This document shows, in pieces, positions 811 through 20,615 of a stretch of 32,980 bases of DNA. Position 1 is the stretch's first letter. Every line of letters starts with the position of its first letter. Origin of the DNA: Lachnospiraceae bacterium (GTDB lineage Bacteria > Bacillota > Clostridia > Lachnospirales > Lachnospiraceae); assembly GCA_011959285.1 (NCBI GenBank), contig BLLW01000041.1, positions 1 to 32,980 of the forward strand, given 5' to 3'. The notes below the pieces were generated by a model. That model was not told where the DNA came from and searched no databases. It saw only the letters and a program-made list of their open reading frames with translations. Made by a program: the position numbers and the translations under genes.

Positions 811-840
811 CTATATAGAGGAAGTTTTTTGTACAAAGAG

Positions 841-1110: not shown

Positions 1111-2502
1111 ATGAACAGGAAAGGGAGGGATTTCACGGTAGGAGATCCCGGACGACAGCTTTTGATTTTTGCGTGGCCTCTTGTTTTATCCATGTTGCTG
1201 CAGAATCTGTATAATATGGCAGATACGCTGATTGTAGGAAGATATCTGGGCGATACGGCAATGGGAGCGGTAGGTACCTGCGGAAGTGTCACAAATGTTG
1301 TCTTGATGCTGATTGGCGGATGCACACAGGGGATGGCAGTGGTGCTTTCCCAGTATATAGGTGCGAAGGATGAAATAAAAGTAAAGAAGACGATTACAAC
1401 AGGTCTGTATATGATTGTGGGAATGGCAATTGTATTTGGGATTATAGGAATCGTGTTTGCCAGAAATCTGCTGATGTTGATTAACGTGTCAGGGGAGGCG
1501 CTTGACTATGCTGCATCCTATCTGGTGATTATCTTTGTGGGCTCTGTCGCCACTGCGCTATACAATATGGGAAATTCCATGTCAAGAGCCTTGGGAGATT
1601 CGGTAACTCCCATGATTGTGTTGATCGTTACCAGCATATTGAATATTTTTTTGAACATTCTTTTTGTGGCTGTTTTCCATATGGGCGTTCCGGGAGTAGC
1701 ATATGCAACCATATTGGCAACGATTCTTTCGGCAATCGTCTGCTGGGGAATCATCTGGAAGAAAATGCCCATTGTACATCCTGACAAAAATACCATTCGT
1801 CCGGATGGAGAAATGGCAAAGCTTGTGCTTAGAATCGGTCTTCCGTCTGCGCTTCAGTCTTCCACTGTCACGATCGGGATTCTGCTTGTCCAGGCTTTGG
1901 TAAATGCTTTTGACACGCCGCTGCTTCCCGTTATGGCTGCTTACGCTGCGGCAACGAAGATAGAAGCTTTTATTTCTTATCCGCCCGGGGGGATATCCCA
2001 GGGAATGCAGGTATTGGCAGGTCAGAACGTAGGCGCCGGCAAGTTCGAGAGAGTCGGCAAGGGGTTAAAAGCAAGTATTAAGATTATAGCAGTGTACTCT
2101 GTATTTTCGGCGTTTGTGCTGATTGCATTTGGACGGTTCTTAATGGGCTTTTTCACAGCGACTCCCGCTACCGTAACGATTGGCTATCATTATCTGGTAG
2201 TGACGGCAATAGGTGTATTCTTCTGTGGTATTGTTTTTACGGTACGTTATACCTTAAGCGGATCGGGGGATGCTTCTGCCGCCGTTTATATTTCGGTGAT
2301 AGAGCTGGCTGTAAGAATTGGCAGCGCTTATGTTCTTGCTCATTTTACGCCCCTTGGCTATATTGGGGTATTTTTAGGAACGCCCATTGGTTGGATGGTA
2401 TCGGGCGCCTATGCGGTTGTCCGTTATAGAAGTGGCAAATGGAAGAAGAAGAGGATTGTAAAAGAGGATCGGGAATCTGCCTCCGCAAATGTGGGAGCAT
2501 AA
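1111..2502 (+). CDS. MATE family exporter (module 1)
   Basis: A 463-residue membrane protein with about 12 hydrophobic helices, the usual MATE length and layout. Family hallmarks seen are an N-terminal LQNLYNMADTLIVGRYLGD segment, the SRALGDS motif near residue 160 and PPGGISQGMQVLAGQNVGAG in the second half. MATE proteins sit in the cytoplasmic membrane and export organic molecules by sodium or proton antiport. Start ATG 1111 is preceded by TTAGGAGGAAAAGAAA. It is only 34 bases upstream of the deglycosidase beta gene, so it probably heads that operon. It is clearly paralogous to the MATE at 17920, which also adjoins a beta/alpha pair. I infer export of an aromatic aglycone or toxic intermediate; the sequence alone does not give the substrate. 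Confidence 0.88.
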   Translation: MNRKGRDFTVGDPGRQLLIFAWPLVLSMLLQNLYNMADTLIVGRYLGDTAMGAVGTCGSVTNVVLMLIGGCTQGMAVVLSQYIGAKDEIKVKKTITTGLYMIVGMAIVFGIIGIVFARNLLMLINVSGEALDYAASYLVIIFVGSVATALYNMGNSMSRALGDSVTPMIVLIVTSILNIFLNILFVAVFHMGVPGVAYATILATILSAIVCWGIIWKKMPIVHPDKNTIRPDGEMAKLVLRIGLPSALQSSTVTIGILLVQALVNAFDTPLLPVMAAYAAATKIEAFISYPPGGISQGMQVLAGQNVGAGKFERVGKGLKASIKIIAVYSVFSAFVLIAFGRFLMGFFTATPATVTIGYHYLVVTAIGVFFCGIVFTVRYTLSGSGDASAAVYISVIELAVRIGSAYVLAHFTPLGYIGVFLGTPIGWMVSGAYAVVRYRSGKWKKKRIVKEDRESASANVGA

Positions 2503-2536
2503 AAATTTCATAAACAAAGAGAAAGGAGAGTAAAAG

Positions 2537-2983
2537 ATGTTTGACAATTTTCTGGTAAGAGAAAACAGTCTTCAAAACGTGGTGAGGGACGGCGAAATAG
2601 TTGGTTTTAAGTTCGATGTCCGTATCGCAGAGTACAGGGGGTGCTTTTTGAGCCTTCATAATGGGTATTATATTGATTTGGATGGAGAGGAATATCCAAG
2701 GAATCTTCAGAAGTTTGAAATCAATGGAATGCCGCCGAGAGATTTTGATGAAATTGCCAAGGCGGTATGGGAGCACTGGGATTATGGAGAATTTGGAACG
2801 GTGTATGTGGAGAAGCCGGGAGGACTTTCAAAAGGACATCACAAGCTGGGCATCATGCAGGGGGTTCTTATGCAGTATGGATGGCAGCCTCACGACCAGG
2901 AGTGGATCGACAATCCGCCGGATCCTAGAGATATGCCCTTTAAGCAGACAGAAGTTTATTATTATGATATGGTTGTGGAGTAA
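2537..2983 (+). CDS. C-glycoside deglycosidase beta subunit-like protein (DUF6379 type), copy 1
   Basis: A 148-residue soluble protein with no signal peptide. It has the pattern of the small beta subunit of C-glycoside deglycosidases (DgpB/DfgB/CarC type): an N-terminal LQNVVRDGEIVGFKFDVRI strand pair, a Y-x-D-x-D-G segment, a WEHWDYGEF motif and KPGGLSKGHHKL. In the family the beta subunit forms a complex with the TIM-barrel alpha subunit and helps shape the active site. The alpha gene starts 14 bases after its stop, the canonical order. Start ATG 2537 follows AAAGGAGAGTAAAAG. It is about 19 residues longer than the second copy at 16498. Family assignment is by recalled pattern, so the exact aglycone is unknown. 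Confidence 0.78.
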   Translation: MFDNFLVRENSLQNVVRDGEIVGFKFDVRIAEYRGCFLSLHNGYYIDLDGEEYPRNLQKFEINGMPPRDFDEIAKAVWEHWDYGEFGTVYVEKPGGLSKGHHKLGIMQGVLMQYGWQPHDQEWIDNPPDPRDMPFKQTEVYYYDMVVE

Positions 2984-2997
2984 GAAAGGAGATAAAA

Positions 2998-4038
2998 ATG
3001 GCTATTAAAAGAGGCGTTTCATTTTACAGCTACCAACAGGCGCAGTATTTTGGACAAATGGATTATCATGATATGTGTAAAGAATTGCATGACAACCTAA
3101 AATGTGATGGCGTGGAAATCATCAATGAGGCGACTGTGCCCGGATATCCTTTCCCGTCGAGAGCGTTTTTGGCAGATTGGGCAAATACGATGGCCCGCTA
3201 TGATTTAACACCGGTGGCACTTGACTGTTTCCTTGATACGATGCGCTTTAGGGATCATGTTATGAATAAGGCGGAAGCGGCTGAACTGATCAAGCTGGAT
3301 TTACAATTGGCACACGACATGGGCTTTAAGCACATCAGGACTATGACAGGACTGCCCGTGGAGGTTACAGAGCGTGCCCTTGATACGGCTGTCAAGCTGG
3401 ATGTAAAGATTGCATGGGAGATACATGCACCGATTCCCATCAGACCAAACCCGGAAATCAAGGGACTGTTCTGTGACAGTCCTGGAACTGCTGTAATGGA
3501 TACGGTGGAATTTATTAAAAAGACGGGTACAAAGCATGTTGGCTTCGTGCCTGATATGGGCATCTTTGCAAGAGGACCGCATCTGGATACGGTGGAGAGA
3601 ATGCTAAGAGATATGAAGGATCAGGGGCTTGCCAGTGAGATTACTGCCCTGATGAAGGAAGTTTCCTTGGGAGAATTATCTACAGAAGTGGAAAAGAGAT
3701 TTGCAGGAAGGCTTTCTGGGGAAGAAAAACGCACGCTTATGTGGAAGATGCATGCGGCGCCCGAAGATCTTGAGCTGATATTACCCTATGTATTTTCTAT
3801 TCATGGAAAATGCCATGATTTGACAGAGATACCTGGCAAACCCGGGCAATATGAGGAGCCGGCACTTCTCTATGAAGAGGTGATCGATGTTCTGAAAAAG
3901 AATAATTGGGATGGCTATATGTGCACAGAATTTGAGGGACAGCGTTCGCGTCAGGAACGTACCATGGATGATTTTGTGGACGAGGTGGATCAGGTAAGGC
4001 GTCACCATGAGATGATGGCACGGCTTATTGGAGAATAA
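2998..4038 (+). CDS. C-glycoside deglycosidase alpha subunit-like TIM-barrel protein, copy 1
   Basis: A 346-residue cytosolic protein of the sugar phosphate isomerase/epimerase (AP endonuclease 2-like TIM barrel) superfamily. It resembles alpha subunits of C-glycoside deglycosidases (DgpC/DfgA/CarB type), which cleave the C-C bond of a 3-keto C-glycoside by deprotonation and elimination. Candidate metal ligands and the general base lie in WEIHAP (E141, H143), PDMGIF (D186), HGKCHD (H269) and TEFEGQR (E311); the spacing fits the barrel strands. Start ATG 2998 is preceded by AGAAAGGAGATAAAA. It is paired with the beta gene just upstream, and a terminator follows. It is related to the alpha protein at 16916 but diverged, so the two pairs may serve different glycosides. 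Confidence 0.78.
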   Translation: MAIKRGVSFYSYQQAQYFGQMDYHDMCKELHDNLKCDGVEIINEATVPGYPFPSRAFLADWANTMARYDLTPVALDCFLDTMRFRDHVMNKAEAAELIKLDLQLAHDMGFKHIRTMTGLPVEVTERALDTAVKLDVKIAWEIHAPIPIRPNPEIKGLFCDSPGTAVMDTVEFIKKTGTKHVGFVPDMGIFARGPHLDTVERMLRDMKDQGLASEITALMKEVSLGELSTEVEKRFAGRLSGEEKRTLMWKMHAAPEDLELILPYVFSIHGKCHDLTEIPGKPGQYEEPALLYEEVIDVLKKNNWDGYMCTEFEGQRSRQERTMDDFVDEVDQVRRHHEMMARLIGE

Positions 4039-4054
4039 AACATATCGGCAAGAG

Positions 4055-4088
4055 CAGGGGGGCAGCTATCAGCCCTCCTGTGTTTTTT
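4055..4088 (+). terminator. Rho-independent terminator ending module 1
   Basis: Hairpin with arms caggggggc (4055-4063) and gccctcctg (4072-4080), a 9-bp stem with one G-T wobble and an 8-base loop, followed by TGTTTTTT. It lies 16 bases after the alpha-subunit stop codon, so the MATE-beta-alpha operon largely ends here. Confidence 0.85.
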
Positions 4089-4121
4089 ATATAAAAATAA
4101 ATGCATAGGAGGAAGAAAAAA

Positions 4122-4454
4122 ATGGCAGGAAAGCTGACAAAGGAAGATATTAAAAATTTTTATAAGGAATTTTTTCACGAACAGAAGATCGATTATGCAA
4201 AAAAAATCATAGCGCCGTATTATATCCAGCACAACCCAGGCGTGGAGGATAGCAGAGAAGGATTTATCAATACTTTTGCTGCTGCATTTGCTTCCGGCAA
4301 AAAGTTTAACATTGAAATCGAAGACATTGTCTTAGGCGAAGACATGGCGGCGGTCATACTGAAAAATCAGAGAGGATCCTTTGCGGTGGTGGATTTTTAC
4401 CGGATAAACAGCGAGGGACAGCTCTGTGAGCATTGGGATGTGTTTTCAAATTAA
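4122..4454 (+). CDS. SnoaL/NTF2-like small protein A
   Basis: A 110-residue soluble protein. The phrase YYIQHNPGVEDSREGF followed by strands ending in HWDVF is typical of the SnoaL-like branch of the NTF2 fold (COG4922 type), an alpha+beta cone that binds small hydrophobic molecules and in some members catalyses aldol-type or isomerisation reactions. Start ATG 4122 was chosen over 4101 because AGGAGG lies directly before it, inside the longer frame. It stands between the module-1 terminator and the AraC-GH39 gene and precedes a second NTF2-like gene. A role in handling an aglycone or keto-sugar intermediate is possible but unproven. Confidence 0.65.
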   Translation: MAGKLTKEDIKNFYKEFFHEQKIDYAKKIIAPYYIQHNPGVEDSREGFINTFAAAFASGKKFNIEIEDIVLGEDMAAVILKNQRGSFAVVDFYRINSEGQLCEHWDVFSN

Positions 4455-4524
4455 GATAGAGTGCAGATTAAAAAAGAAAAGGATTTGCAAAAAAAGAAAA
4501 AATTTTATAAAAGAGGGACTAGAA

Positions 4525-4860
4525 ATGAAGGAAGAACAAATGATAATAGAAATGTATGATGTAATATGCAATGCCAGAAAAACAGATAGGATCAGGGACT
4601 ATTTTTCGGAGGAATTTGAAGAGATCACGCCCGGATTTGAAGGGAAAGGACCGGAGGCGTTCCTTAAAAGAAATGAGGATTTCTTTACCTCTGCGGGCGC
4701 TGCCATAGAAATGGTAAAGGTCTTTGCAGATACACAAAAGCCAACGGTGGGTGTCTATGCAAAAGCAAGATTCAAAGGGAAAACATTATTTCGTATTGCA
4801 GGTTTTTTTGAAATCAAAGACGGAAAGATTGTATCTCACAAATCACTTCATCAACAATAA
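4525..4860 (+). CDS. NTF2-like small protein B
   Basis: A 111-residue soluble protein with the NTF2-like pattern: N-terminal helices (YDVICNARKTDRIRDYFSEEF), a central ITPGFEGKGPEAF segment and C-terminal strands ending FFEIKDGKIVSHKSLHQ. Start ATG 4525 is preceded by AAGAGGGACTAGAA. An in-frame upstream extension to 4426 is lysine-rich, overlaps the previous gene and has no ribosome site, so I rejected it. The next gene (AraC-GH39) starts 17 bases after its stop, suggesting co-transcription. It differs from protein A beyond the shared fold. Function unknown. Confidence 0.62.
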   Translation: MKEEQMIIEMYDVICNARKTDRIRDYFSEEFEEITPGFEGKGPEAFLKRNEDFFTSAGAAIEMVKVFADTQKPTVGVYAKARFKGKTLFRIAGFFEIKDGKIVSHKSLHQQ

Positions 4861-4877
4861 CAAAGGAGGGTTTGCCT

Positions 4878-7259
4878 ATGCCTGGATTGGGAGTTTGGTT
4901 CAGAATTGAGCAGATGAAAAGCGAAGCACATAGAAACAGTCCAAGGATGGAGCTTCTATATGTCATTGACGGGAAATTGTGCATTACGCTGGGAGAGCAG
5001 AATATCATACTGCAGAAGGAAGATATGTATTTTGTAAACGCAGGGTGCTCCGTCAGTTGTGTTGCCCTTCGCTCCGGCATTTTGTTCCGGATTTCTGTGG
5101 AACCGTCGGTACTGGAGGAGGAAATTGGAGGAGAGCATATTGAGATTGATCTTGACAGCACGCAGGCGGAAAGGAATGACACCCGCTATCGCCAGCTTCG
5201 GGTCTATATGATTGAGCTTATAAGGAGCTGTCTTTGCGGAGGAAATTCTGACAAATTTGATCAATACTCCAAGTGCTATCTGATTTTGGGATACTTGACC
5301 AAGTATTTCCGCAAGGTAAATGAGCGGGAGGAGAAAGCGGATTCTTATCAAAAGTACACGGATGAAGTCATTCGGTTTATTTGGGAGAACTATGACAAGC
5401 AGATAACCCTTCAGGATATGGCAGATAAGCTTTATATTACCAACTCTCATTTGTCGAGGGTACTGAAAAAAAGTCTTGGAAAGAATTTCAGATCTTATAT
5501 CAACGAGGTACGTCTTTTAAGGGCTGTGGAAGAGCTGGAAAACAGCGATAAGTCTATCCTGCGTATCGCCAATGACAATGGTTTTTCGGGCTTGGCAGCT
5601 TTCAACAAGGCGTTTAAGGAAAGCTATGCAGTTTCGCCTACCGTCTATAGGCGGCGGTTCAGGGATAAAGAAAAGGTCAGGGAAGAAGACAAGAGCACTT
5701 TAACAGAAGCGGCGCTGGTGAGCGTGGAAAGCAGCTTTGCGCATTTGATGACGGATAAGGGGATGCCGGAACTGGAGATTTCATCTTTTGTGGGAAACTA
5801 TACGCCTTATACAAAGCCCTGGCAGGATGTGATTAATGTGGGAACTGCCGCAGAACTTTTAAATAATAAAATTCAGCACCATATTCTGCGGGCAAAGCGG
5901 GAGCTTGGATATAAATATGTAAGGTTCTGGGGAATCTTTCAGGATGAGCTTTTAATCATGCCGCGTGCATTAGGGGACCGCCCCAACTTTAGCCGTCTGG
6001 ATGACAGTATCAACTTTTTGCTGAACAACGATTTGAAGCCGTTTATTCAGATGGGTCCAAAGCCTAGAAATATTATCCGCGGTCTTGGCAATAGCATTAT
6101 GCCTTCCGGCGCGCATCAGAGTCTTATATTGACATATGATGAACAGCAATGGAAGCAGTTGGTAGACAGTTTTATGAACCATCTTATGATTTATTATGGG
6201 GAGGATGAAATCAACACATGGATATTTGAAATGTGGAATCCTTATCCATGGGACAAGCAGTGGTATGAATGGTTCAAGCCTTTGAAGTACGCAGATTGCA
6301 GTAAGGTGGTCAAGAAATATGCGCCCAATGCATTCTTTGGGGGCGGGGAATTTGTAAGCTCTATGCTTTCAGGGCTGCCGGCAAAGCTTGGGGAGCTGGA
6401 AAAGCTTGGGACAAATTCGGATTTTCTCTCCTTTGCCATGTTTCCTTACGAGCCGGACGGGGTATCCTTGCCGCCGCTGGAGACAAACATCAATTTTATG
6501 CGGGACAGCTTAAAAAAAATTAGGAAAATGATGGAGGACTGCGGCGCTTCACACAAAAAACTTTATCTGGATCTCTGGAACAATACGATTTCCAGCCGGA
6601 ATGTCTTAAATGACGCGGTCTATAGAGGCGCTTATATCATTAAGAATGCCATTGACGCCATAGGCGAAGTGGATCAGCTCTGTTTTTGGCAGTGCACAGA
6701 TGCTTTTACGGAAGACTTTGACTCTGACGGTATTCTCCATGGGGGGAGCGGAATAATGACCAGGGATGGATTTTTTAAGCCTGCCGCATATGCCTTTGGC
6801 TTTTTGAAGCGTCTTTATGGAAAATTGATTGAGAAAAACGACAATTACATGATTACCACCAATGGTCATGGCAATTATGCCATTATCTATCATAATTTAA
6901 AGGCGCTGCTTGGCAGTATTTATTTAAAAAAAGAGGATGCCCTTCGCTATGAAGATCTTCATGAGGCGTTTGAAGACAATAATTCCATGAAGCTTAAGTT
7001 TAAACTCAGCGGGATGGTGGATGGCTATTATGATGTCCGTTTCCAGCATGTAGATAAATACAGCGGCAGTATATTGGACGAATGGAAGCAAATTGGAGGT
7101 TTTACGGATATGCCTAAGGAAGATAAGCAATATCTTGAAAATGTAAGTATACCGAAACGGTATTTTGTAAGAAAAAAGGTAATAGAAGGAATGATGGAAC
7201 TGGAACTTGAGGCTCTGGCGAATGGTTTTGGGCTGATTGAGATTATGTTTCGGGGATGA
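4878..7259 (+). CDS. AraC-family regulator fused to a catalytically dead GH39-like domain
   Basis: A 793-residue three-part protein. Residues about 1-85 look like a cupin-type AraC sensor domain (MELLYVIDGKLCITLGEQ). Residues about 160-262 hold two helix-turn-helix units (LQDMADKLYITNSHLSRVLK and ILRIANDNGFSGLAAFNKAF), which bind DNA. Residues about 300-790 resemble glycoside hydrolase family 39 (LGYKYVRFWGIFQDEL, then KNAIDAIGEVDQLCFW). In active GH39 enzymes the acid/base lies in a WNEP motif and the nucleophile in TEWN. Here these read MWNPYPW (residues 452-458) and LDLWNN (564-569), so both glutamates are gone. I infer a sugar or glycoside sensor driving the two flanking operons. ATG 4878 was chosen over TTG 4872 because GGAGGG is 7 bases upstream. 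Confidence 0.85.
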   Translation: MPGLGVWFRIEQMKSEAHRNSPRMELLYVIDGKLCITLGEQNIILQKEDMYFVNAGCSVSCVALRSGILFRISVEPSVLEEEIGGEHIEIDLDSTQAERNDTRYRQLRVYMIELIRSCLCGGNSDKFDQYSKCYLILGYLTKYFRKVNEREEKADSYQKYTDEVIRFIWENYDKQITLQDMADKLYITNSHLSRVLKKSLGKNFRSYINEVRLLRAVEELENSDKSILRIANDNGFSGLAAFNKAFKESYAVSPTVYRRRFRDKEKVREEDKSTLTEAALVSVESSFAHLMTDKGMPELEISSFVGNYTPYTKPWQDVINVGTAAELLNNKIQHHILRAKRELGYKYVRFWGIFQDELLIMPRALGDRPNFSRLDDSINFLLNNDLKPFIQMGPKPRNIIRGLGNSIMPSGAHQSLILTYDEQQWKQLVDSFMNHLMIYYGEDEINTWIFEMWNPYPWDKQWYEWFKPLKYADCSKVVKKYAPNAFFGGGEFVSSMLSGLPAKLGELEKLGTNSDFLSFAMFPYEPDGVSLPPLETNINFMRDSLKKIRKMMEDCGASHKKLYLDLWNNTISSRNVLNDAVYRGAYIIKNAIDAIGEVDQLCFWQCTDAFTEDFDSDGILHGGSGIMTRDGFFKPAAYAFGFLKRLYGKLIEKNDNYMITTNGHGNYAIIYHNLKALLGSIYLKKEDALRYEDLHEAFEDNNSMKLKFKLSGMVDGYYDVRFQHVDKYSGSILDEWKQIGGFTDMPKEDKQYLENVSIPKRYFVRKKVIEGMMELELEALANGFGLIEIMFRG

Positions 7260-7274
7260 TCCTATGCTTTTTGG

Positions 7275-7318
7275 GGCTATGTCAAAAACATTATATTTTT
7301 TTTTGACATAGCCTTTTG
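7275..7318 (+). terminator. Strong Rho-independent terminator after the AraC-GH39 gene
   Basis: Perfect 14-bp inverted repeat, ggctatgtcaaaaa (7275-7288... arm within one base) and tttttgacatagcc (7300-7313), with an 11-base loop, followed by TTTTGG. The A and T tracts let it work in either direction. It separates the regulator from the long operon starting at 7517. Confidence 0.85.
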
Positions 7319-7516
7319 GTTTATTTATTGCAATCTCATAAAACCCAATAAGTTTGTAGTAAAATGTCAATTTGCGCCATAGATTCATTTCCGGCAAGAT
7401 TTATAATTATAAGTAAGTTAAAGAGAAATGAATAGGCGTATTTTTAGTACTTTTCCGAAAGGCAAAATGATATATGGTGAAAATGTACAAAAATACGAGA
7501 AAAACAGGAGGGCGTT
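7319..7516 (+). promoter_or_regulatory. Leader and probable promoter region of the long catabolic operon
   Basis: About 200 non-coding, AT-rich bases between the terminator and the first dehydrogenase gene. TATAAT at 7402-7407 is the best -10 candidate; the 17-base-upstream hexamer (atagat) is a poor -35. No gene lies here and I saw no riboswitch fold. An activator-dependent promoter used by the adjacent AraC protein is the simplest reading, by inference. Confidence 0.4.
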
Positions 7517-8566
7517 ATGGATATTCGGTTAGGGATTATTGGATTTGGCGGAATGGGCAAGCATCATGCCAAGCATGCGCCAAAGGGCGGCGTAAAGGTA
7601 GAAGCGGCTTGCGATATACTTCCGGAAAGAGTAGAGGAAGCAAAGCAGGAAGGTATAAAAGGATACCATTCTGTCCAGGAGCTTTTGGCGGATCCTGAGG
7701 TCAATACGGTGATTTTGACGGTGCCAAATCATCTGCACAAGGAAATGGCAATTAAGGCAGCTGCAGCAGGGAAGCATGTGATTACGGAAAAGCCTGCCGC
7801 CTTAAGCGTTGCAGAACTGGACGAAATGGAGGAAGCCTGCAAAAAGGCGGGCGTATGCTTTACAGCCCATCAGAACCGCAGATGGGACAAGGATATGCTG
7901 ACCATCAAGCATGCCTATGATCATGGAACCTTGGGAAAAATTTTTACAATTGAATCAAAGCTACACTCTGGCAACGGCTATATGCATGAATGGCATTTAT
8001 ATAAGAAATATGGCGGCGGTATGATGTATGACTGGGGGGTTCACCTAATCGATCAAATCCTTTTTATGATGCCGGACGCAAAAATCAAATCCCTTTATGC
8101 AGATGTAAAAAATGTGCTGCATGAAGAGGTGGATGACTATTTTAAAATCATCATGAAACTTGACAACGGCGTAACAGTACATATCGAGCTGTCCACTTAT
8201 ATTCTCAAATATCAGCCCAGATGGCTTGCCGGTGGCGATAAGGGAACCATGATCGTGGAAAATCTTGGGGGAGGAAAAGGAGCCATCTACAGGACGGGAA
8301 AGATGCTTGAAAAACTGCCGCCACAAATCACGGAGACAGAGGCTGGTCCTACAAGACAGTTTGCGCCTGTGCCGCCTGGCGGAATCGTGGAAGAGGCTCT
8401 TCCCAAGATAGAATCAGATGTTTTGGAATTTTACCGCAATTTCAAGGATGTCATAAACGGGCAGGGAGAGCTGCTTGTCAAAATTCCCACCGTCAGGAGG
8501 GTGCTGACCGTCATGGAAGCGGTCATGCGTTCTGCAAAGACGGGTGAGGCAATCTTTCTTGAATAG
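7517..8566 (+). CDS. Gfo/Idh/MocA family oxidoreductase 1
   Basis: A 349-residue cytosolic NAD(P)-dependent dehydrogenase. The N-terminal Rossmann fold shows GFGGMG (residues 9-14) and the family EKP motif (E91-P93), where the lysine is catalytic. The C-terminal half holds YDWGVHLIDQ, giving the usual D-x-x-x-H pair (D172, H176). In C-glycoside pathways enzymes of this family oxidise the sugar C3 hydroxyl so that the alpha/beta enzyme can cleave the C-C bond. Start ATG 7517 has AGGAGG five bases upstream. It is the first gene of the long operon, 58 bases before the ABC permease. It could instead act on the released 3-keto sugar, since a second, different dehydrogenase lies downstream. Confidence 0.87.
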   Translation: MDIRLGIIGFGGMGKHHAKHAPKGGVKVEAACDILPERVEEAKQEGIKGYHSVQELLADPEVNTVILTVPNHLHKEMAIKAAAAGKHVITEKPAALSVAELDEMEEACKKAGVCFTAHQNRRWDKDMLTIKHAYDHGTLGKIFTIESKLHSGNGYMHEWHLYKKYGGGMMYDWGVHLIDQILFMMPDAKIKSLYADVKNVLHEEVDDYFKIIMKLDNGVTVHIELSTYILKYQPRWLAGGDKGTMIVENLGGGKGAIYRTGKMLEKLPPQITETEAGPTRQFAPVPPGGIVEEALPKIESDVLEFYRNFKDVINGQGELLVKIPTVRRVLTVMEAVMRSAKTGEAIFLE

Positions 8567-8624
8567 TACTCTTTAGAGGAAACATATGATTGGAAACTGA
8601 TGACAAAACCATAGGAGTGCATAT

Positions 8625-9608: not shown

Positions 9609-9610
9609 TT

Positions 9611-10516: not shown

Positions 10517-10530
10517 GGAGGACAGGGGTT

Positions 10531-11577: not shown

Positions 11578-11579
11578 GC

Positions 11580-12536: not shown

Positions 12537-12602
12537 GAGAAAACCAATGGGCGCGTCCTTTGGAATATAAAAACAAAAAAAGAAAAGAAAGGAAAAGGGA
12601 TT

Positions 12603-14255: not shown

Positions 14256-14305
14256 TGGTAAAGAAGAATGGAACAGAATTTGTGACGCTTCGGAATGGAG
14301 GAAAA

Positions 14306-15562
14306 ATGAAAGAAATCAGAGTAGCGATTATAGGCGGTGGGATGATTTCCCACAGACATATGGTGATTTATTCTAACATTCAGCGTAATGCTGAAAAACT
14401 TGGCTTTACTGCTAAGGTGGTGGCTGTTGCGGAAGTTGTTCCCGAGAGGCTGAAGGCATGGGGGGAACAATATGGTATGGAGGAAAAGGATCTTTACACC
14501 GATTATCGTGAGCTTTTAAAGCGCGATGATATTGATACTGTTGACGTGTGTGTACATAACAATCTCCATACCCCTATTTCTATTGAGGTTATGAAGGCTG
14601 GATTTGACTGTTATTGTGAAAAACCTGCTGCAGCCAGCTACCATGATGCCAAAATGATGGTGGACTGTGCGGCAAAGCTGGGACGTAAATTTCATGTGCA
14701 GATCAGTTCCCTTATGACGCCTCAGACCAGAGCGGCAAGGGATATCATTGCAAACGGCGATATCGGTACGCCATATTATGTAAACTTAGAGCAGTGTACC
14801 ATGAGACGCCGTCCGGGCTATGATCTTCCGGAGTTTACCACAGACTTTTATTCCCGGAGAATTGCCGGACATGGTCCTTCCATTGACTTGGGGATTTATG
14901 TGATTGGACAGATTCTCTTTGTACTGGGAAGACCGAAAGTAAAATCGGTTTCAGGTTTTTGCCGTAGAGAGGTGGAAATCGACCAGAAACTGGTTACAAA
15001 TCCCGATGGATTTGGGGTGGAAGATATTTGTGATGGGTTTGTAAAATTTGAAAATGGCATAGGGTTCCATTTCCTTTCCACTTCTGCAAACAACATCAAA
15101 GAGTATGCCATGACTTATATTCTGGGAACCAAGGGCGGTCTGGAATTTACGGATACGGACACCGTAGGCGGAAAGTTTGCCAGAAAGCCTGGACAGAGAA
15201 AAATGTTTGGAGGAGAGCCAGAGCTGAAGTTCTATGGCAATGTGAATGGAAGAGTGGTAAACACTGAGCTAAACTGCGATGCCAACGGCATAGTGGAGGA
15301 AAGGTTAGACCCGAAAATGATGCTGTATAATGATAATCAGTGCATGTGGCTGGCTTATAAACTGGGCATTCTGGATGATACCACAAGATATCAGACACCG
15401 GAGATCGCATTAGAACAGCTTTTGATCACAGACGGTATGTTCCTTTCCCAGGAGGAAGGCAGAGAAATGATGCTGGATGAAATCATTGCGAAATCTCCCA
15501 CCTTATATATTCCGGAGATAGAAATCAATGGTTCCCTGCACAAATTTGACGTAGCTTATTGA
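14306..15562 (+). CDS. Gfo/Idh/MocA family oxidoreductase 2 (GFOR-like active site)
   Basis: A 418-residue NAD(P)-dependent dehydrogenase, longer than oxidoreductase 1. It has the Rossmann glycine motif IIGGGMISHRH and the EKP motif (E105-P107). The usual D-x-x-x-H pair reads SIDLGIYVIGQ, so position 198 is tyrosine instead of histidine, with D194 kept. Tyrosine there is known from glucose-fructose oxidoreductase-type relatives, so I read this as a subfamily feature. It is the better candidate for oxidising the intact glycoside at C3 (DgpA-type role), by context. ATG 14306 with GGAGG four bases upstream was preferred over 14255, which would overlap the previous stop and add 17 residues. Confidence 0.85.
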   Translation: MKEIRVAIIGGGMISHRHMVIYSNIQRNAEKLGFTAKVVAVAEVVPERLKAWGEQYGMEEKDLYTDYRELLKRDDIDTVDVCVHNNLHTPISIEVMKAGFDCYCEKPAAASYHDAKMMVDCAAKLGRKFHVQISSLMTPQTRAARDIIANGDIGTPYYVNLEQCTMRRRPGYDLPEFTTDFYSRRIAGHGPSIDLGIYVIGQILFVLGRPKVKSVSGFCRREVEIDQKLVTNPDGFGVEDICDGFVKFENGIGFHFLSTSANNIKEYAMTYILGTKGGLEFTDTDTVGGKFARKPGQRKMFGGEPELKFYGNVNGRVVNTELNCDANGIVEERLDPKMMLYNDNQCMWLAYKLGILDDTTRYQTPEIALEQLLITDGMFLSQEEGREMMLDEIIAKSPTLYIPEIEINGSLHKFDVAY

Positions 15563-15568
15563 TAGACA

Positions 15569-15607
15569 ACATTGCCACCATTTGCCCTTAGGAAGTGGTG
15601 GCAATGT
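15569..15607 (+). other. Long perfect intercistronic hairpin without a T-run
   Basis: Arms acattgccacca (15569-15580) and tggtggcaatgt (15596-15607) are perfectly complementary, and three further pairs extend the stem into a nine-base loop. It begins six bases after the dehydrogenase stop and ends just before the ribosome site of the isomerase gene. No T-run follows, so it is more likely an mRNA processing or stability element than a terminator. Confidence 0.75.
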
Positions 15608-15629
15608 CAGATAAAAGGAGGAAATTTTT

Positions 15630-16463
15630 ATGAGCAGACTTCCCGTTGGCATTCAGGTGTATGGACTTCGCGATCTTTTGGAAAATACCCCTGACAATTT
15701 TAAAAATGTGATGCAGCAGATTAAGGATATGGGATATGACGGTGTGGAATTGGCAGGACTTTATGGGATTGACCCTGCCGATATCAAGCGCATACTTGAT
15801 GAAGTAGGACTAATTCCAATCAGCGCCCACGTTCCGTTGGTGGATATGATGGAAGATCCCGAGAAGGTGGCAGAAGATTATAAGACGGTAGGGGTGGATT
15901 ATGTAGTAGTGCCCTATCTTCCAGAAGAATATCGTCATAATACGCCGGGCTATCCCAAAGTGATTGAGGAGATGAAACGGATTGGTAAGGTCATGAAAGA
16001 TCATGGCATCAAACTCCTTTATCATAACCATGATTTTGAGTTTGTAACGCTGCCTGATGGCAGCTTTGGTTTTGACGATATTTATACCCAGATACCTGCG
16101 GACCTTCTTATGGTTGAGCCGGATGTGTGCTGGATCAAGGTGGCGGGTCAGAATCCGGCAGCTTATGTGAAAAAATATGGCGCAAGATGTGAGATTGTTC
16201 ACCTGAAGGACTTCATCAAGGAAGGAAATCCCCAAAATCTCTATAAATTGATAGGAATAGAGACAGAAGAGTCTAAGGAGGATACCGGCATATTTGAATT
16301 TAGACCGGTAGGATTTGGTCAGCAGATCTGGGAGCCGATTTTGGAGGCTTCCCTTGAAGCAGGCTCCAAATGGGTCGTGGTGGAACAAGATGAGCATTAT
16401 GAACTGCCGCCGTTAGAAGCTGCAAGGCGGAGCAGGGAATATTTAAAGATACTTGGTTGGTAA
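15630..16463 (+). CDS. Sugar phosphate isomerase/epimerase family TIM-barrel protein
   Basis: A 277-residue cytosolic TIM barrel of the xylose isomerase-like/AP endonuclease 2 superfamily (IolE/inosose group). Candidate metal ligands are in the expected order: HNHDFEF (E137), EPDVCW (D165), HLKDF (H191) and VVEQDEHY (E252). Members act on keto-sugars, epimerising or isomerising them, and relatives accompany C-glycoside and 3-keto-glycoside genes. It may process the sugar product released by the alpha/beta enzyme. ATG 15630 follows AAAGGAGGAAATTTTT. It sits between dehydrogenase 2 and the second beta gene in one operon. The precise reaction cannot be read from the sequence. Confidence 0.82.
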   Translation: MSRLPVGIQVYGLRDLLENTPDNFKNVMQQIKDMGYDGVELAGLYGIDPADIKRILDEVGLIPISAHVPLVDMMEDPEKVAEDYKTVGVDYVVVPYLPEEYRHNTPGYPKVIEEMKRIGKVMKDHGIKLLYHNHDFEFVTLPDGSFGFDDIYTQIPADLLMVEPDVCWIKVAGQNPAAYVKKYGARCEIVHLKDFIKEGNPQNLYKLIGIETEESKEDTGIFEFRPVGFGQQIWEPILEASLEAGSKWVVVEQDEHYELPPLEAARRSREYLKILGW

Positions 16464-16497
16464 TCATGAATTGACTTGACTTTGAAAGGGTGGGGTT

Positions 16498-16887
16498 ATG
16501 AACGAAAAATATATCATTGCAGATAACAAATTGGAAAATGTAACGGTAGACGGCAGAATCATAGGCTGTCAGGTGGGGCTTCGCATTCCTTATTACATGG
16601 GAGCCCCGCTCAGCCAGATTGAACATATCGTTCTCAAAATCGATGGGGTGGAAGTTTTGCAGGAGGATATGAGGATCATAACAGAGGATGGAGAGGAATT
16701 CAAAATGTCCGAAATCATAACCTGTTACCGTCATTTCTGGGAATATGGCGCAAAGCTTCAGGTGAGGGTTCTAAAGGAAGGCGGGCTTTCCAAGGGAAAG
16801 CACAGAATCGATGTGGATGTGGCGGTTGATGTAATCTATGCGCCCAAAGGATTTGGCAGTATTGCTTATGCGGAATTTACAATATAG
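16498..16887 (+). CDS. C-glycoside deglycosidase beta subunit-like protein (DUF6379 type), copy 2
   Basis: A 129-residue soluble protein matching the beta-subunit pattern: KLENVTVDGRIIGCQVGLRI, PYYMGAPLSQIEHI, a DGVEV strand, HFWEYGAKLQVRV and KEGGLSKGKHRIDV. The KxGGLSKGxH motif is shared with copy 1 (residues KPGGLSKGHH). It would assemble with the alpha protein starting 28 bases downstream. ATG 16498 follows AAAGGGTGGGGTT. It is shorter than copy 1 and looks closer to typical family length. Low overall similarity between the copies suggests an old split and different substrate preference rather than a recent duplication. Confidence 0.78.
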   Translation: MNEKYIIADNKLENVTVDGRIIGCQVGLRIPYYMGAPLSQIEHIVLKIDGVEVLQEDMRIITEDGEEFKMSEIITCYRHFWEYGAKLQVRVLKEGGLSKGKHRIDVDVAVDVIYAPKGFGSIAYAEFTI

Positions 16888-16892
16888 TTTAG

Positions 16893-16902
16893 CAAACGTT
16901 TG
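16893..16902. promoter_or_regulatory. Perfect palindrome CAAACGTTTG in the beta-alpha gap
   Basis: A 10-base perfect palindrome lying in the 28-base gap between the two deglycosidase genes and touching the ribosome site of the alpha gene. Its core resembles LacI/PurR-type operators. A related 13-base string occurs at 1028-1040 upstream of module 1, matching at 10 of 13 positions. No LacI-type regulator is encoded in the window, so function is uncertain. Confidence 0.35.
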
Positions 16903-16915
16903 AAAGGAGTAATCG

Positions 16916-17920
16916 ATGGCTATTACAAGAGGTGTTTCATTATACAGTCTTCAGGAAGACTATTATTTGGGGAAGCTGGATATAGAGGGATGTATCGCAA
17001 AGACGGCCAATGAGATCGATGCAAAGGGAATCGAGGTCCTGCCGGATCAGATGCCCCTGCCAAGCCTTCGGAGCGTGGACAGGGTATTGTCTCAAAAGGA
17101 TCTGGATATGTGGTTCGGATGGATGGAAAAATACGGTACCTTTCCGGCTGCTTATGATGCCAATTTCTTCACCACCATGTTTTCCAACAGGCACATGTCT
17201 GTAAAGGAAACCATTGAATGGACGAGAAAGGATCTTTACGTTGCCCATCAGATGGGATTTCCTGTGTACCGCACCGGTATCATACGGCATGAGGACATTG
17301 AGATTCTCTCTGCCTGCTTTGACTATGCGGAGGAACTGGGGGTTCAGATCGCTACCGAGGTGCATGCGCCCAGAGGCATCCATACATGGTGGACCCAGGA
17401 CTTTTTGGAAGAGATTCAGCGGAAAAATGCGAAGTATGCAGGATTTGTGGTTGACTTTGGTATTTTTACAGTAGGCATGTCCTTGTCCTCTAAACATAAG
17501 TATGAAAGGGCAGGGGCAAAGACGGAAATCTTAGAGGCGATTGATGAGGCTTACCGTGCAGGAAGTCCTTTGACGGATTCTGACATAGAAAAGCTGGGAG
17601 GCGGCAGTGTTGAGAAGGAAGCTGCCGAGAGGCTGAAAGGCGCTATACATGACGATCCGGCATGGCTTAGAGAGGTTCTGCCTTATACCAAGCATTGTCA
17701 TGGCAAATTCTATGAGATGACAGAAGAATGCAAGGAGCCTTCCATCGATTATGCAGGGCCCATCCGGGTTATGCAGGAAATTGGCTGGGAGGGGTGCATC
17801 TCTTCCGAATATGAGGGACAGAGAGATTATTTCGATATCGGTTGTGATATCTATATGGATCCTGTAGAGCAGTGTAGAAGACATCACATGATGCTAAAAC
17901 GGCTTTTAGGTGAGGCATAA
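16916..17920 (+). CDS. C-glycoside deglycosidase alpha subunit-like TIM-barrel protein, copy 2
   Basis: A 334-residue TIM-barrel protein related to the alpha protein at 2998. Both begin MAI-x-RGVS-x-YS, both carry E-[IV]-HAP (here E148, H150), a DFGIF/DMGIF strand (D180), HGK (H262) and an E-[FY]-EGQR segment (E298), then end with a RRHH-MM-RL tail. These residues are the candidate metal site and catalytic histidine of the C-C bond cleaving elimination. ATG 16916 follows GAAAGGAGTAATCG. The stop codon TAA shares its last base with the start of the MATE gene, so expression of the two is coupled. Substrate unknown; the divergence from copy 1 argues for a different C-glycoside. Confidence 0.78.
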   Translation: MAITRGVSLYSLQEDYYLGKLDIEGCIAKTANEIDAKGIEVLPDQMPLPSLRSVDRVLSQKDLDMWFGWMEKYGTFPAAYDANFFTTMFSNRHMSVKETIEWTRKDLYVAHQMGFPVYRTGIIRHEDIEILSACFDYAEELGVQIATEVHAPRGIHTWWTQDFLEEIQRKNAKYAGFVVDFGIFTVGMSLSSKHKYERAGAKTEILEAIDEAYRAGSPLTDSDIEKLGGGSVEKEAAERLKGAIHDDPAWLREVLPYTKHCHGKFYEMTEECKEPSIDYAGPIRVMQEIGWEGCISSEYEGQRDYFDIGCDIYMDPVEQCRRHHMMLKRLLGEA

Positions 17921-19278
17921 TGGCAGGAACAAGGAGAGACTTTACGGCGGGCAGTCCAGCCAGGGAGATGCTGCTTTTTGCTATACCGCTGATTGGCACC
18001 ATGATCTTGCAGAATTTATATACCACGGCAGACCTTGTAATCGTGGGACGATATATAGGAGACAGCGCCCTGGCAGCCGTTGGCGCAACAGCAAGTATTT
18101 CTGCAATGGTGTTGATGCTGATTGCAGGCGCCACCGAAGGGATGTCAGTGATCATAGCCCAGTTTTACGGAGCCAAGGATTATGAAAAGGTAAGACGTAC
18201 CGTCACCAATTCCCTGTATCTGATAGCAGGTATGGCGCTGGTATTCGGGGTGTTGGGCGCCGTTTTTGCAAAGCCTCTTTTGATGTTGATCCATGTTACG
18301 CCGGAAAACGGAGTATTGGAGCTTGCCACTGTTTATCTCAGAATTATTTTTCTGGGGGAGGTGGCAACTTCTCTTTATAATATGGCTAATTCCCTTTCAA
18401 GAGCGCTGGGAGATTCGCTGACGCCGCTGATTGTGCTGGTGGTGTGCAGTATCATGAATGTATTGCTTAATTTTGTGTTTGTTGCAAAGCTTGGCATGGG
18501 GGTAGAGGGCGTTGCCTACGCTACGATACTTGCCACCGTATGTTCAGCGGCTGTGAGCTGGGTATTGATGTTGAAGAAGAATCCTGTCGTCCGTTTTGGA
18601 AGAAAGGATATGAAGATTGACAGAACTATATTGATTCTTACTGCAAAAATCGGCGTACCCTCTGCTTTGAAAAGTTCTACTACGGCAATCGGAAATATTT
18701 TGCTGCAGAATTTGGTAAACAGCTTTGGGATGTTGGTGATGGCAGGGTACAATGCAGGTATGCAGCTGGAGCGGTTGATCGCGAATCCGCCGGGAGGAAT
18801 CACGCAGGCAATGCAGGTCTTTGCCGGGCAAAATGTAGGCGCCGGTCAGCAGAAGAGGGTGAAAAAAGGATTTACGGCTGGGTTTTGTATCATTACAATT
18901 TATTGTATCTTTTCCGCTATCGTGCTGGTGGCGGGAGGAAAATTTTTAATCGGACTTTTTTCAGCGGATGCAGACAGCGCTATGATGGATATCGGGTATG
19001 CGTATCTGGTAACCGCCGCATTCAGCACCTACTTCTGCGGCATGGCATGGCTTACCAAAAGTACGCTTATTGGGGCGGGAGACGCATCGGCAGGTCTGTA
19101 TATCAGTGTGATTGAAATACTGGTGAGGGTGGTGATCAGTTATATCCTGGCATGGTATACGCCTTTGGGATATTTAGGAATTTTTATCGCCACGCCGGTC
19201 AGTTATGTGGCATCGGGAATATATGGGCTTGTACGTTTCCGCGGCGGAAAATGGATGAAAAAGAGGTTTGTAGAATGA
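17920..19278 (+). CDS. MATE family exporter (module 2)
   Basis: A 452-residue twelve-helix MATE protein. It is clearly paralogous to the MATE at 1111: shared RDFT-x-G start, LQNLY...AD-IVGRY-GD, SRALGDS-TP, GVAYATILAT and PPGGITQAMQVFAGQNVGAG. The start ATG overlaps the alpha-subunit stop (TAATG), a strong sign of one translational unit. The same family sits next to each deglycosidase pair, before it in module 1 and after it here. I infer that it exports the freed aglycone or a pathway by-product; generic drug export by sodium or proton antiport is the alternative. Confidence 0.88.
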   Translation: MAGTRRDFTAGSPAREMLLFAIPLIGTMILQNLYTTADLVIVGRYIGDSALAAVGATASISAMVLMLIAGATEGMSVIIAQFYGAKDYEKVRRTVTNSLYLIAGMALVFGVLGAVFAKPLLMLIHVTPENGVLELATVYLRIIFLGEVATSLYNMANSLSRALGDSLTPLIVLVVCSIMNVLLNFVFVAKLGMGVEGVAYATILATVCSAAVSWVLMLKKNPVVRFGRKDMKIDRTILILTAKIGVPSALKSSTTAIGNILLQNLVNSFGMLVMAGYNAGMQLERLIANPPGGITQAMQVFAGQNVGAGQQKRVKKGFTAGFCIITIYCIFSAIVLVAGGKFLIGLFSADADSAMMDIGYAYLVTAAFSTYFCGMAWLTKSTLIGAGDASAGLYISVIEILVRVVISYILAWYTPLGYLGIFIATPVSYVASGIYGLVRFRGGKWMKKRFVE

Positions 19279-20615
19279 CGAAAACGGGAAAGAAGTTCAT
19301 TCCATTATATTTATCGCTGGTTCTTCAGCACATCATTACGCTTGCCGTGAATCTTGCCGACAATATGATGCTGGGCGCTTACAGCGAAATATCCCTATCG
19401 GGGGTGGCGGCTGTCAATCAAATTCAGTTTGTGCTGCAGCAGCTCACCCTTGCCGTTGGAGAGGCGCTTGTGGTAATCTGCAGTCAGTATTGGGGAAAGA
19501 GACGTACCGAGCCTATGAAAAGAATCTGTGCAGTGGCTATGCAGACGGCAGTCTTTTTTGCAGTGATCTTGTTTGCCGGGGTGAGCTTTTTCCCCGGTCA
19601 AACTACGAGGATTTTTACGAATGATGAGATCATCATCAAAGAAGGGGCAGCATACCTTGAGATGATTCGCTTTACCTATTTTTTCTTTGTCGCTACGCAG
19701 GTATTGCTGGCGCTTTTAAGGAGCATGACGGTGGTGCGGATTGCACTTTACCTTTCCCTGATGACATTCTTTGTCAATTGCGGAATCAATTATGTTTTAA
19801 TTTATGGGCGTTTAGGAATGCCCGAGATGGGAGTCCGGGGAGCTGCCATAGGAACCCTTGCGGCAAGAATCTTAGAGCTTGCGGTGTTGATTATTTTTAT
19901 TCGCATAAAAGGCGGGGAATTGCAGCTTCGATGTTCTGATTTTCTCGTGAGAGATAAGGAACTTAGCAAAGACTACTATCGTACCGCGCTGCCTTTGATG
20001 GCGGCACAAGGGCTTTGGGGATTAAATACCATGCTCCAGACTGTTATTCTCGGGCATATGGATAAAGCAGCCATTGCGGCGAACAGCGTGGCATCTAATG
20101 TATATCTGATGGTGAAGTCAGGCGCCTTAGGAGCCTCTTCCGCCGCCGCTGTCCTTATAGGAAATGGGGTGGGAGCGGGAGACTATGATGCTGTGAGGAA
20201 AAATGCGCTCTGGCTGCAGAAGTTCTTCGTATGTGTAGGGATTCTTTCGGGCGTGATTCTCTATGGAATCAGGATTCCCATTTTATCAATCTATCAACTC
20301 TCAGAGAGCACGAGAGAAATGGCGGACGCCTTTTTGATCGTCCTATGTGTAGTCATAGTGGGAATGTCCTATCAGATGCCGGCAGGAGGGGGAATTATCA
20401 GGGGCGGCGGGGAATCTTCGTTCGTGGTGAAAATGGATATTATTTGTATATGGATGATCGTGATTCCTCTTTCCCTTTTTATGGCATTTGTGGTAAAGGC
20501 GTCGCCGGTTGTGGTGGTGGCATGCCTGAATGCGGACCAAGTCTTCAAATGTATTCCGGTGTTCCTCAAAGTGAACAGAGGAAATTGGATAAAAAATCTG
20601 ACGAATGTCAGTTAG
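19275..20615 (+). CDS. MATE family exporter, third copy, different subgroup
   Basis: A 446-residue MATE-type membrane protein. ATG 19275 overlaps the previous stop (ATGA) and has AAGAGG eight bases upstream, so it is preferred over an in-frame start at 19152 that would run 41 codons into the neighbour. Signature regions are VNLADNMMLGAYSEISLSGVA at the N-terminus (in part), GVRGAAIGTLAARILE mid-way and GALGASSAAAVLIGNGVGAG in the second half. It is distant from the two module MATEs, so it is not a recent tandem duplicate. Two different MATE proteins back to back could work on different products or as a heterodimer; neither can be decided here. Confidence 0.85.
   Translation: MTKTGKKFIPLYLSLVLQHIITLAVNLADNMMLGAYSEISLSGVAAVNQIQFVLQQLTLAVGEALVVICSQYWGKRRTEPMKRICAVAMQTAVFFAVILFAGVSFFPGQTTRIFTNDEIIIKEGAAYLEMIRFTYFFFVATQVLLALLRSMTVVRIALYLSLMTFFVNCGINYVLIYGRLGMPEMGVRGAAIGTLAARILELAVLIIFIRIKGGELQLRCSDFLVRDKELSKDYYRTALPLMAAQGLWGLNTMLQTVILGHMDKAAIAANSVASNVYLMVKSGALGASSAAAVLIGNGVGAGDYDAVRKNALWLQKFFVCVGILSGVILYGIRIPILSIYQLSESTREMADAFLIVLCVVIVGMSYQMPAGGGIIRGGGESSFVVKMDIICIWMIVIPLSLFMAFVVKASPVVVVACLNADQVFKCIPVFLKVNRGNWIKNLTNVS

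Follow-up and report, generated by a model that had tools for sequence, protein, structure and literature searches.

Contig BLLW01000041.1 of a Lachnospiraceae bacterium (assembly GCA_011959285.1) belongs, as contig C41, to a draft genome of 4.23 Mb and 317 contigs; it was analysed over 32,980 nucleotides, here called the window. From about position 811 to 20,690 it carries an island of genes, all on the plus strand according to the list of open reading frames (ORFs) and a Pfam scan of 30 window ORFs. They encode two alpha-beta pairs of C-glycoside deglycosidase (CGD) subunits, a further TIM-barrel enzyme (TIM3), two Gfo/Idh/MocA oxidoreductases, an Opp-type ABC importer, three MATE transporters, two SnoaL-like proteins and an AraC-type regulator. 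The island is probably (at about 0.72) one for glucoside utilisation, combining import, cleavage by oxidation and elimination, and export of the aglycone. A first-pass annotation had described it as a C-glycoside catabolic island; its ORF coordinates agree with the ORF list and the genes it listed are present, while the regulator (4878-7259) and the two SnoaL-like ORFs (4122-4454 and 4525-4860) had been overlooked. A fourth MATE gene follows MATE3 on the minus strand. The genes and features of the island are, in order:

811 to 1110, plus strand: region upstream of the first unit, with the terminator of the preceding gene (hairpin after orf1) and an inverted repeat
1111 to 2502, plus strand: MATE1, MATE-family transporter (PF01554, 1.4e-50; TIGR00797, 202.8 bits, cut-off 147.4)
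2537 to 2983, plus strand: beta1, CGD beta subunit (PF19906, 3.8e-34; DgpB, 2.7e-9; DfgB, 4.1e-9)
2998 to 4038, plus strand: alpha1, CGD alpha subunit (8qvc_A, 2.6e-38; 7bvs_A, the DfgB partner, 7.8e-30)
4054 to 4081, plus strand: intrinsic terminator-like hairpin 3' of alpha1
4122 to 4454, plus strand: SnoaLa, SnoaL/NTF2-fold protein of a CGD-linked subfamily (PF07366, 1.5e-10)
4525 to 4860, plus strand: SnoaLb, divergent SnoaL-like protein (PF12680, 8.6e-9; SnoaL subfamily profile only 7e-6)
4878 to 7259, plus strand: AraC-type regulator fused to a GH39-like domain (PF12833, 6.4e-20; PF01229, 1.7e-37)
7273 to 7315, plus strand: terminator-like hairpin 3' of the regulator
7517 to 8566, plus strand: GfoA, DgpA2-like, probable glucoside 3-dehydrogenase (GFO_IDH_MocA; 9m37_A, 7.1e-93)
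8625 to 9608, plus strand: OppB permease (PF00528, 9.5e-35)
9611 to 10516, plus strand: OppC permease (PF00528, 4.1e-29; PF12911, 9.1e-19)
10531 to 11577, plus strand: OppD ATPase (PF00005, 2.2e-27; PF08352, 9.6e-15)
11580 to 12536, plus strand: OppF ATPase (likely start, from the start context; the ORF opens at 11481; PF00005, 4.9e-29; PF08352, 8.3e-15)
12603 to 14255, plus strand: OppA-type solute-binding lipoprotein (PF00496, 3.9e-60)
14255 to 15562, plus strand: GfoB, DgpA1-like Gfo/Idh/MocA enzyme (9m3d_B, DgpA1, 1.4e-27; DgpA, 2.4e-24)
15630 to 16463, plus strand: TIM3, AP_endonuc_2 TIM barrel resembling 3-keto-beta-glycoside 1,2-lyases and OGE (8tcs, 1.6e-20; AtOGE, 8bvk, 3.8e-20)
16498 to 16887, plus strand: beta2, CGD beta subunit (PF19906, 1.9e-30)
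16916 to 17920, plus strand: alpha2, CGD alpha subunit (8qvc_A, 2.9e-49; 7bvr_A, the DgpB partner, 1e-28)
17920 to 19278, plus strand: MATE2 transporter (PF01554, 2.4e-53)
19275 to 20615, plus strand: MATE3 transporter (likely start; the ORF opens at 19152; PF01554, 2e-37)

The two beta/alpha pairs that had been proposed at 2537-4038 and 16498-17920 are borne out. The small proteins of 148 and 129 residues, for which a DUF6379 match was predicted, reach 117.3 bits (beta1) and 105.4 bits (beta2) against PF19906, well over its cut-off of 27.6. This family, formerly DUF6379, is now named "C-glycoside deglycosidase beta subunit" (CGDB), and several PDB chains are still labelled DUF6379. The alpha proteins match AP_endonuc_2 marginally (alpha1, 31.1 bits at a cut-off of 31.1) or below the cut-off (alpha2, 28.6 bits). 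Each of them finds eight PDB sequences at E <= 0.001, all being CGD alpha chains or coming from entries with a DUF6379 chain or domain. These are AgCGD2 (7DNM/7DNN), the partners of DgpB (7BVR, 7XRF), DfgB (7BVS) and P581a DgpB1 (9M3B), and chains of 8QVC, 9M3A and 8QRZ, entries which also contain a DUF6379 chain or a CGDB-like stretch. The E-values of alpha1 and alpha2 are 1.1e-22 and 1e-28 to 7bvr_A, and 7.8e-30 and 2.6e-31 to 7bvs_A. When compared with DgpC/DfgA the alpha proteins thus fall among the CGD alpha subunits and not among unrelated isomerases, with their active site kept.

AgCGD2 binds its metal through Glu147, Asp179, His269, Lys271 and Glu305, with His149 as the catalytic and Glu307 as a supporting residue (PMC8563793). 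Motifs and alignment give E141, D186, H269, K271 and E311 as the metal ligands of alpha1, with H143 and E313 as the catalytic and supporting residues; the corresponding residues of alpha2 are E148, D180, H262, K264 and E298, H150 and E300. In the beta subunit of PuCGE the exchange Y39F abolished more than 99% of the C-cleavage and only 59% of the O-cleavage (PMC10628242), and Y33 of both beta1 and beta2 aligns with this tyrosine. Because the metal ligands, the catalytic histidine, the supporting glutamate and the beta tyrosine are all retained, both pairs look catalytically intact and competent for C-C cleavage. PuCGE cleaves 3-keto O-glucosides as well as C-glucosides (PMC10628242), and the natural bond of the pairs in the window is therefore not readable from sequence. 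The first-pass annotation had assigned the island to uptake and cleavage of dietary aromatic C-glycosides. The CGD pairs, a DgpA2-like Gfo enzyme and the importer agree with this, but C-glycosides alone are too narrow a substrate class, and a dietary origin of the substrates is something we infer.

Variants of the CGD genes are seen elsewhere. In genome G008 an alpha-like protein beside a beta subunit (L022:14548-15630) has Cys-Leu-Ser in place of Glu-x-His, Glu in place of the histidine of HxK and Met in place of the first glutamate of ExE, and is possibly an inactive or metal-free variant. A further CGD pair on contig C54 of the window's own genome (L025:10336-11474) looks broken, as the beta match covers the profile only from position 30 on and the alpha frame is limited to 256 residues; a 66% identical GfoA relative lies downstream. 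CGDB domains also occur in open frames of 472-539 residues (G146:C69, G344:C66 and G103:C6), which suggest beta-alpha fusions like the 435-residue PDB chain 8qrz that matches beta1 and alpha1 alike.

TIM3 is a TIM barrel, as had been noted, and belongs to AP_endonuc_2, but it does not resemble an isomerase so much as the 3-keto-glycoside lyases. At E <= 0.001 it finds six PDB sequences, the best three being 8TCS (1.6e-20), AL1 (8TCD, 1.9e-20) and AtOGE (8BVK, 3.8e-20) and the others BT1 (1.7e-11) and two proteins of Parabacteroides for which no activity is named. The PDB titles describe 8TCD, 8TCR and 8TCT as 3-keto-beta-glucopyranoside-1,2-lyases and 8BVK as the O-glycoside beta-eliminase AtOGE; the stretch of 8TCS aligned to TIM3 is identical to that of AL1. 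The active site of AtOGE comprises His132 (metal), His134 (catalytic), Asp163, His189 and Glu233 (PMC10628242), with which H132-N-H134, D165, H191 and E252 of TIM3 align. The lyases and AtOGE also top the fold ranking, obtained with a weak model (mean predicted local distance difference test score, pLDDT, 62.5). As this model is poor over residues 133-221, where some of the active-site residues lie, it is the sequence that carries the assignment. TIM3 is most likely a third eliminase, acting on O-glucosides and of the AtOGE or 3-keto-beta-glycoside 1,2-lyase type, and the island is best read as holding three eliminases of two kinds.

Close relatives of TIM3 outside the genus (at least 58% identity) are found in eight of 397 genomes of the family. 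Seven of these genomes are CGDB-positive, and for four of the eight copies a CGDB gene is found at a distance of less than 5 kb; G330, G103 and G307 are CGDB-positive with the copy distant from CGDB, and G413 has no CGDB match. The p-value for this co-occurrence, 1.1e-7, is a guide only, as is that given for SnoaL below, since kinship is ignored and the three surveys are assumed to cover the same 397 genomes, on which the handles agree.

Both Gfo/Idh/MocA enzymes that had been proposed are GFO_IDH_MocA proteins by Pfam. GfoA is closest to P581a DgpA2, the structure of which was solved with isoorientin (9m37_A), and is a probable glucoside 3-dehydrogenase. The matches of GfoB to DgpA1 and DgpA are weaker; relatives of 69-72% identity are found beside CGD pairs in G020:C45, in Hungatella hathewayi DSM 13479 (L074), and in L059 and L060. 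GfoB may be a second dehydrogenase or a 3-keto-glucose reductase, the split of the oxidase and reductase roles between GfoA and GfoB not being set by sequence.

The Dpp-type importer, noted earlier as lying on the same strand, is complete according to Pfam, with two permeases, two ATPases and a SBP_bac_5 protein at 8625-14255. From GfoA through the opp genes to GfoB the gaps are 58, 2, 14, -4 (2 with the start at 11580), 66 and -1 bases. The exporters of the first-pass annotation are likewise present, as three MATE genes on the island strand at both ends, and relatives of MATE3 (72-75%) lie beside other CGD pairs of the genus. Plant glucosides would be the ligand of the importer, and the MATE pumps would export the aglycone.

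CGDB is found in four of the 37 genomes of the genus, and the whole island in three (the own genome, G020 and G035, in the last over two contigs); the fourth, G008, has other CGD loci. As the island is syntenic at 88-100% protein identity in the two other genomes, the gene set is not a matter of chance. G010 and G005, which lack a CGDB match, show the empty site where the flanking genes of the island adjoin, with the flank matches 55 bases apart in G005 and separated by 1.6 kb and two other ORFs in G010. The earlier borders agree with this site, and the pattern would fit gain as well as loss of the island. A mobile element with border repeats was considered and rejected, as the island edges share no word of 10 bases or more; there is no integrase among the 30 scanned ORFs, and the base composition shows no clear shift (GC fraction 0.454 in the island and 0.463 to its right). 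A comparison with Rfam gave no match. To the left, positions 1-810 encode the end of a large protein (open frame of about 965 residues in close relatives) with X-X-X-Leu-X-X-Gly heptad repeats (TIGR03057). To the right, two neighbouring ORFs at 26652-28617 encode proteins of 323 and 321 residues without Pfam match and with similar starts, RVQNQAIFMGDS and RIQNTTIFMGDS, and are perhaps tandem paralogues.

Outside the genus, 32 loci were available among 37 that were collected with a four-row alpha alignment, an alignment of nine alphas being too diverse; the sample is biased to that branch. Neighbours were sought with the window's own proteins, so that unrelated transporters and divergent enzymes are detected only where Pfam was run (two scans of ten proteins each). 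The importer accompanies a CGD pair in L060 and L067. L060 has OppC, D, F and A (60-76%), GfoB (72%), beta (47%) and alpha (59%). Anaerobacterium chartisolvens DSM 27016 (L067) has a largely similar functional set in the order Gfo-TIM-Gfo-MATE-beta-alpha-OppABCDF; it differs in gene order, in having one CGD pair, with an alpha of 37% identity, a TIM barrel only 23% identical to TIM3 and no SnoaL match. The combination of importer and CGD pair is thus recurrent, neither universal nor unique to the window, and its recurrence argues for function. The self-contained import-cleave-export set that had been put forward stands in so far as importer, CGD and MATE genes occur together, but it is not unique, importer, CGD and MATE being found together in L067 and importer and CGD in L060.

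Importer, deglycosidases and exporters had further been described as one unit. They are conserved as a unit of presence and absence, but two terminator-like hairpins, the first behind alpha1 and the second behind the regulator, make a single operon unlikely. The stem of the former is preserved in G020 despite base changes, and the latter is longer, with a 16-bp stem, and conserved in three genomes. Because both are conserved, MATE1-beta1-alpha1, SnoaLa-SnoaLb-regulator and GfoA-to-MATE3 are probably separate transcription units, at least three in number. Terminator-like sites show no excess in positions 1-20000 (20, against 18.4 +/- 4.0 in shuffles), and the case therefore depends on these two sites; a promoter scan was uninformative (44 sites, 37.4 +/- 6.2 expected). 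Conservation across three genomes is also seen upstream of both MATE1 and GfoA, with 85% mean column identity over 811-1110, where a conserved inverted repeat at about 921-953, CATATCAA..TTGATATG, is a possible operator. GH39 enzymes carry an Asn-Glu-Pro motif. The GH39 part of the regulator has no Asn-Glu-Pro, and since FEMWNPYP is found at that place it is probably a sensor and not an enzyme. Relatives of the regulator occur in eight of the 32 outside loci, the match in L069 covering only 13% of the protein.

SnoaLa scores 41.4 bits in Pfam (cut-off 28.4), and its model (pLDDT 90.4) has an NTF2-type fold, with low-identity matches to SnoaL2, ketosteroid isomerase and limonene epoxide hydrolase among others; ranked first is 3g0k (23% identity), a protein of unknown function. 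SnoaL-like genes are present in seven of the 32 outside loci (L080-L085 and L088), of which L081 and L082 are close kin, and likewise L083 and L085. In six of them the gene is directly 3' of the alpha gene of the pair; in L080 its neighbour is an alpha-like gene of distant kinship, encoded on the opposite strand, and the alpha-beta pair is about 8 kb away. A profile of the subfamily finds seven strong matches (E < 1e-43) in the 397 family genomes, all of which are in CGDB-positive genomes (p = 2.1e-7). With the own genome left out, six of six strong copies share a contig with a CGDB gene, three at 4.9-6.0 kb, two at 13.1 and 16.6 kb and one at 71 kb. Weaker matches (n = 15; E 1e-18 to 1e-30, threshold 1e-15) fall in nine CGDB-positive and six CGDB-negative genomes, and in the nine never on the CGDB contig. 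As these are also enriched in CGDB-positive genomes (9/15), shared ancestry or habitat contributes to the association.

Proteins of the NTF2-type fold are known to add or remove water, examples being scytalone dehydratase and limonene epoxide hydrolase. The published route proceeds through oxidation, elimination, hydration and reduction (PMC10628242). Because a hydration is needed and the fold can perform such chemistry, SnoaLa is a candidate, though a speculative one, for the hydratase of 2-hydroxy-3-keto-glucal. Against this, L081 has a further TIM barrel (about 4816-5616) straight after its second Gfo gene in addition to SnoaL, and PF01261 matches at nine places in the own genome, of which four are neither CGD alphas nor TIM3, so that hydration may take place in trans. 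The proposal that SnoaL occurs only where there is no other TIM barrel is weakened by L081, which has both. PF01261 was checked at five of the seven SnoaL loci (L081, L083, L084, L085 and L088), with contigs matched to loci by coordinates. No further PF01261 TIM barrel was found elsewhere on the L084 and L085 contigs, within 10 kb of alpha in L083, or within about 12 kb on one side in L088, where only about 5 kb of contig is left on the other side. A limited search of the literature gave no mention of SnoaL among the matches listed. It is rather improbable that the island encodes the full circuit of import, oxidation, elimination, hydration, reduction and export for aromatic C- and O-glucosides with a SnoaL/NTF2 protein, and not a TIM barrel, as hydratase and Opp as a dedicated C-glycoside importer. 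If true, the SnoaL subfamily that travels with CGD would add a new enzyme to the non-hydrolytic pathway of glycoside breakdown.

Downstream of the CGD-SnoaL genes, L081 (5699-8997) and L083 (11314-14696) encode iron-sulphur flavoproteins of the NADH dehydrogenase type, possibly linked to electron transfer or aglycone reduction.

In the pathway proposed here, the Opp-type importer would take up plant glucosides, and GfoA, to judge from its DgpA2-like family, would oxidise C3 of the glucosyl residue. The metal-dependent alpha-beta pairs would then expel the aglycone from the 3-keto-glucoside, C-C bonds included, while TIM3 would do so for O-glucosides, as its family and active site suggest. The 2-hydroxy-3-keto-glucal would be hydrated by an enzyme encoded elsewhere or, speculatively, by the SnoaL-like protein, and GfoA or GfoB may reduce the 3-keto-glucose to glucose, which would complete the redox cycle as the A. 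tumefaciens and PUE pathways suggest. The MATE pumps would finally expel the aglycone, and the AraC-GH39 protein is probably the glycoside sensor that turns on the separately terminated units.

The same Gfo oxidase and CGD alpha-beta pair, with oxidation followed by C-C elimination, are found in the dgpABC puerarin cluster of strain PUE. Compared with the published part of that cluster used here, the window has two pairs, an OGE-like lyase, two Gfo enzymes and the Opp importer, and also three MATE genes, two SnoaL genes and the AraC-GH39 regulator. The dfgABCDE cluster of E. cellulosolvens likewise brings together a CGD pair (DfgAB), a DgpA homologue (DfgE) and an O-glycosidase (DfgCD); in the window the candidate for the O-glycoside side is the AtOGE-like TIM barrel. 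The GlycDH-AtOGE-AtHYD-Gfo operon of A. tumefaciens has the same logic of oxidation, elimination, hydration and reduction, and its AtOGE is matched by TIM3; the window differs in having Gfo enzymes instead of the GlycDH flavoenzyme, extra CGD pairs and no clear AtHYD. Among solved structures, TIM3 is nearest to the Bacteroides/Alistipes lyases BT1 and AL1 (20-22% identity in the fold alignment), from which it is set apart by its place beside CGD pairs. The dgpA genes of Catenibacillus are reported to be separate from dgpBC, and those statements on transporters that were consulted in the paper are not tied to dgp genes (PMC11170127). Uncultured gut species with dfgAB homologues have been linked to mangiferin conversion (PMC12101588), and PMC12724307 contained none of the six transporter, cluster or operon terms looked for.

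Several observations weigh against the glucoside-utilisation reading. SBP_bac_5 is a broad family, and in NCBIfam OppA scores highest with a nickel binder, at 110 bits against a cut-off of 393. Among the 32 outside loci, some with short flanks, the importer accompanies a CGD pair in only two and MATE genes are found in only three (L065, L067 and L092), while L061 of Paenibacillus periandrae (alpha 52%, flanks of 9.5-10 kb) has the alpha-beta pair and no other island gene. The strong SnoaL type is absent from 27 of the 33 CGDB-positive family genomes besides the own one (G000), the TIM3 model is weak, and GfoB could be an oxidase of another substrate and not the reductase. In line with the doubt about the importer, Opp might be a peptide, nickel or other importer that is in the operon by chance, and the MATE proteins general drug pumps. 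All nearest NCBIfam models of OppA, which are nickel (NikA) and oligopeptide binders, are below cut-off, and other SnoaL-type CGD loci have other transporters (MFS transporters in L081, two ABC permeases in L088) or none among the three proteins scanned (L083), these three loci having been scanned in part. This is nevertheless unlikely, as the opp genes are placed between GfoA and GfoB with gaps of -4 to 66 bases, L060 repeats OppC, D, F, A-GfoB-beta-alpha at 47-76% identity, and L067 repeats the set in another order.

The system could also act mainly on plant phenolic O-glucosides, with C-cleavage absent or incidental. Plant natural-product glycosides are mostly O-linked, PuCGE accepts both bond types (PMC10628242) and TIM3 is OGE/lyase-like. 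On the other hand, two full alpha-beta pairs would be redundant for O-glycosides beside an OGE-like lyase, both betas have the tyrosine that is needed, if not sufficient, for C-cleavage, and GfoA is nearest to a DgpA2 solved with isoorientin, which leaves a mainly O-directed system doubtful. TIM3 itself may not be an eliminase but the 2-hydroxy-3-keto-glucal hydratase, in the role of AtHYD, or an epimerase. A hydratase is required by the pathway (PMC10628242), the only NCBIfam match of TIM3 is the keto-inositol dehydratase IolE (2.5e-14, below cut-off), and AtHYD and the epimerase YcjR appear at ranks 13 and 16 of the fold search made with the weak model. AtHYD is, however, absent from the six PDB matches at E <= 0.001, and the 277 residues of TIM3 are nearer to AtOGE (29.9 kDa) than to AtHYD (41.0 kDa), so we hold this role to be the less probable one for TIM3 and keep to that of an O-glucoside eliminase.

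The core chemistry of oxidation followed by elimination is known, and its presence in the island is supported at the level of sequence. What looks new is the packaging, the third eliminase of another kind, the linked importer and MATE genes, and the recurrent SnoaL partner. No report of a dedicated Opp-type uptake system for C-glycosides was found among the literature matches listed. C-glycosides, among them puerarin, isoorientin and mangiferin, are resistant to ordinary glycosidases. Whether the host receives their aglycones depends in part on which gut bacteria can cleave them. To our knowledge, the entry of C-glycosides into cells and the recycling of the odd sugar product are little studied. 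The island gives candidates for uptake (Opp), an O-glucoside branch (TIM3), hydration (SnoaL), export (MATE) and control (AraC-GH39), and parts of it may be tested in culture, as relatives are found in Hungatella hathewayi DSM 13479 and Anaerobacterium chartisolvens DSM 27016.

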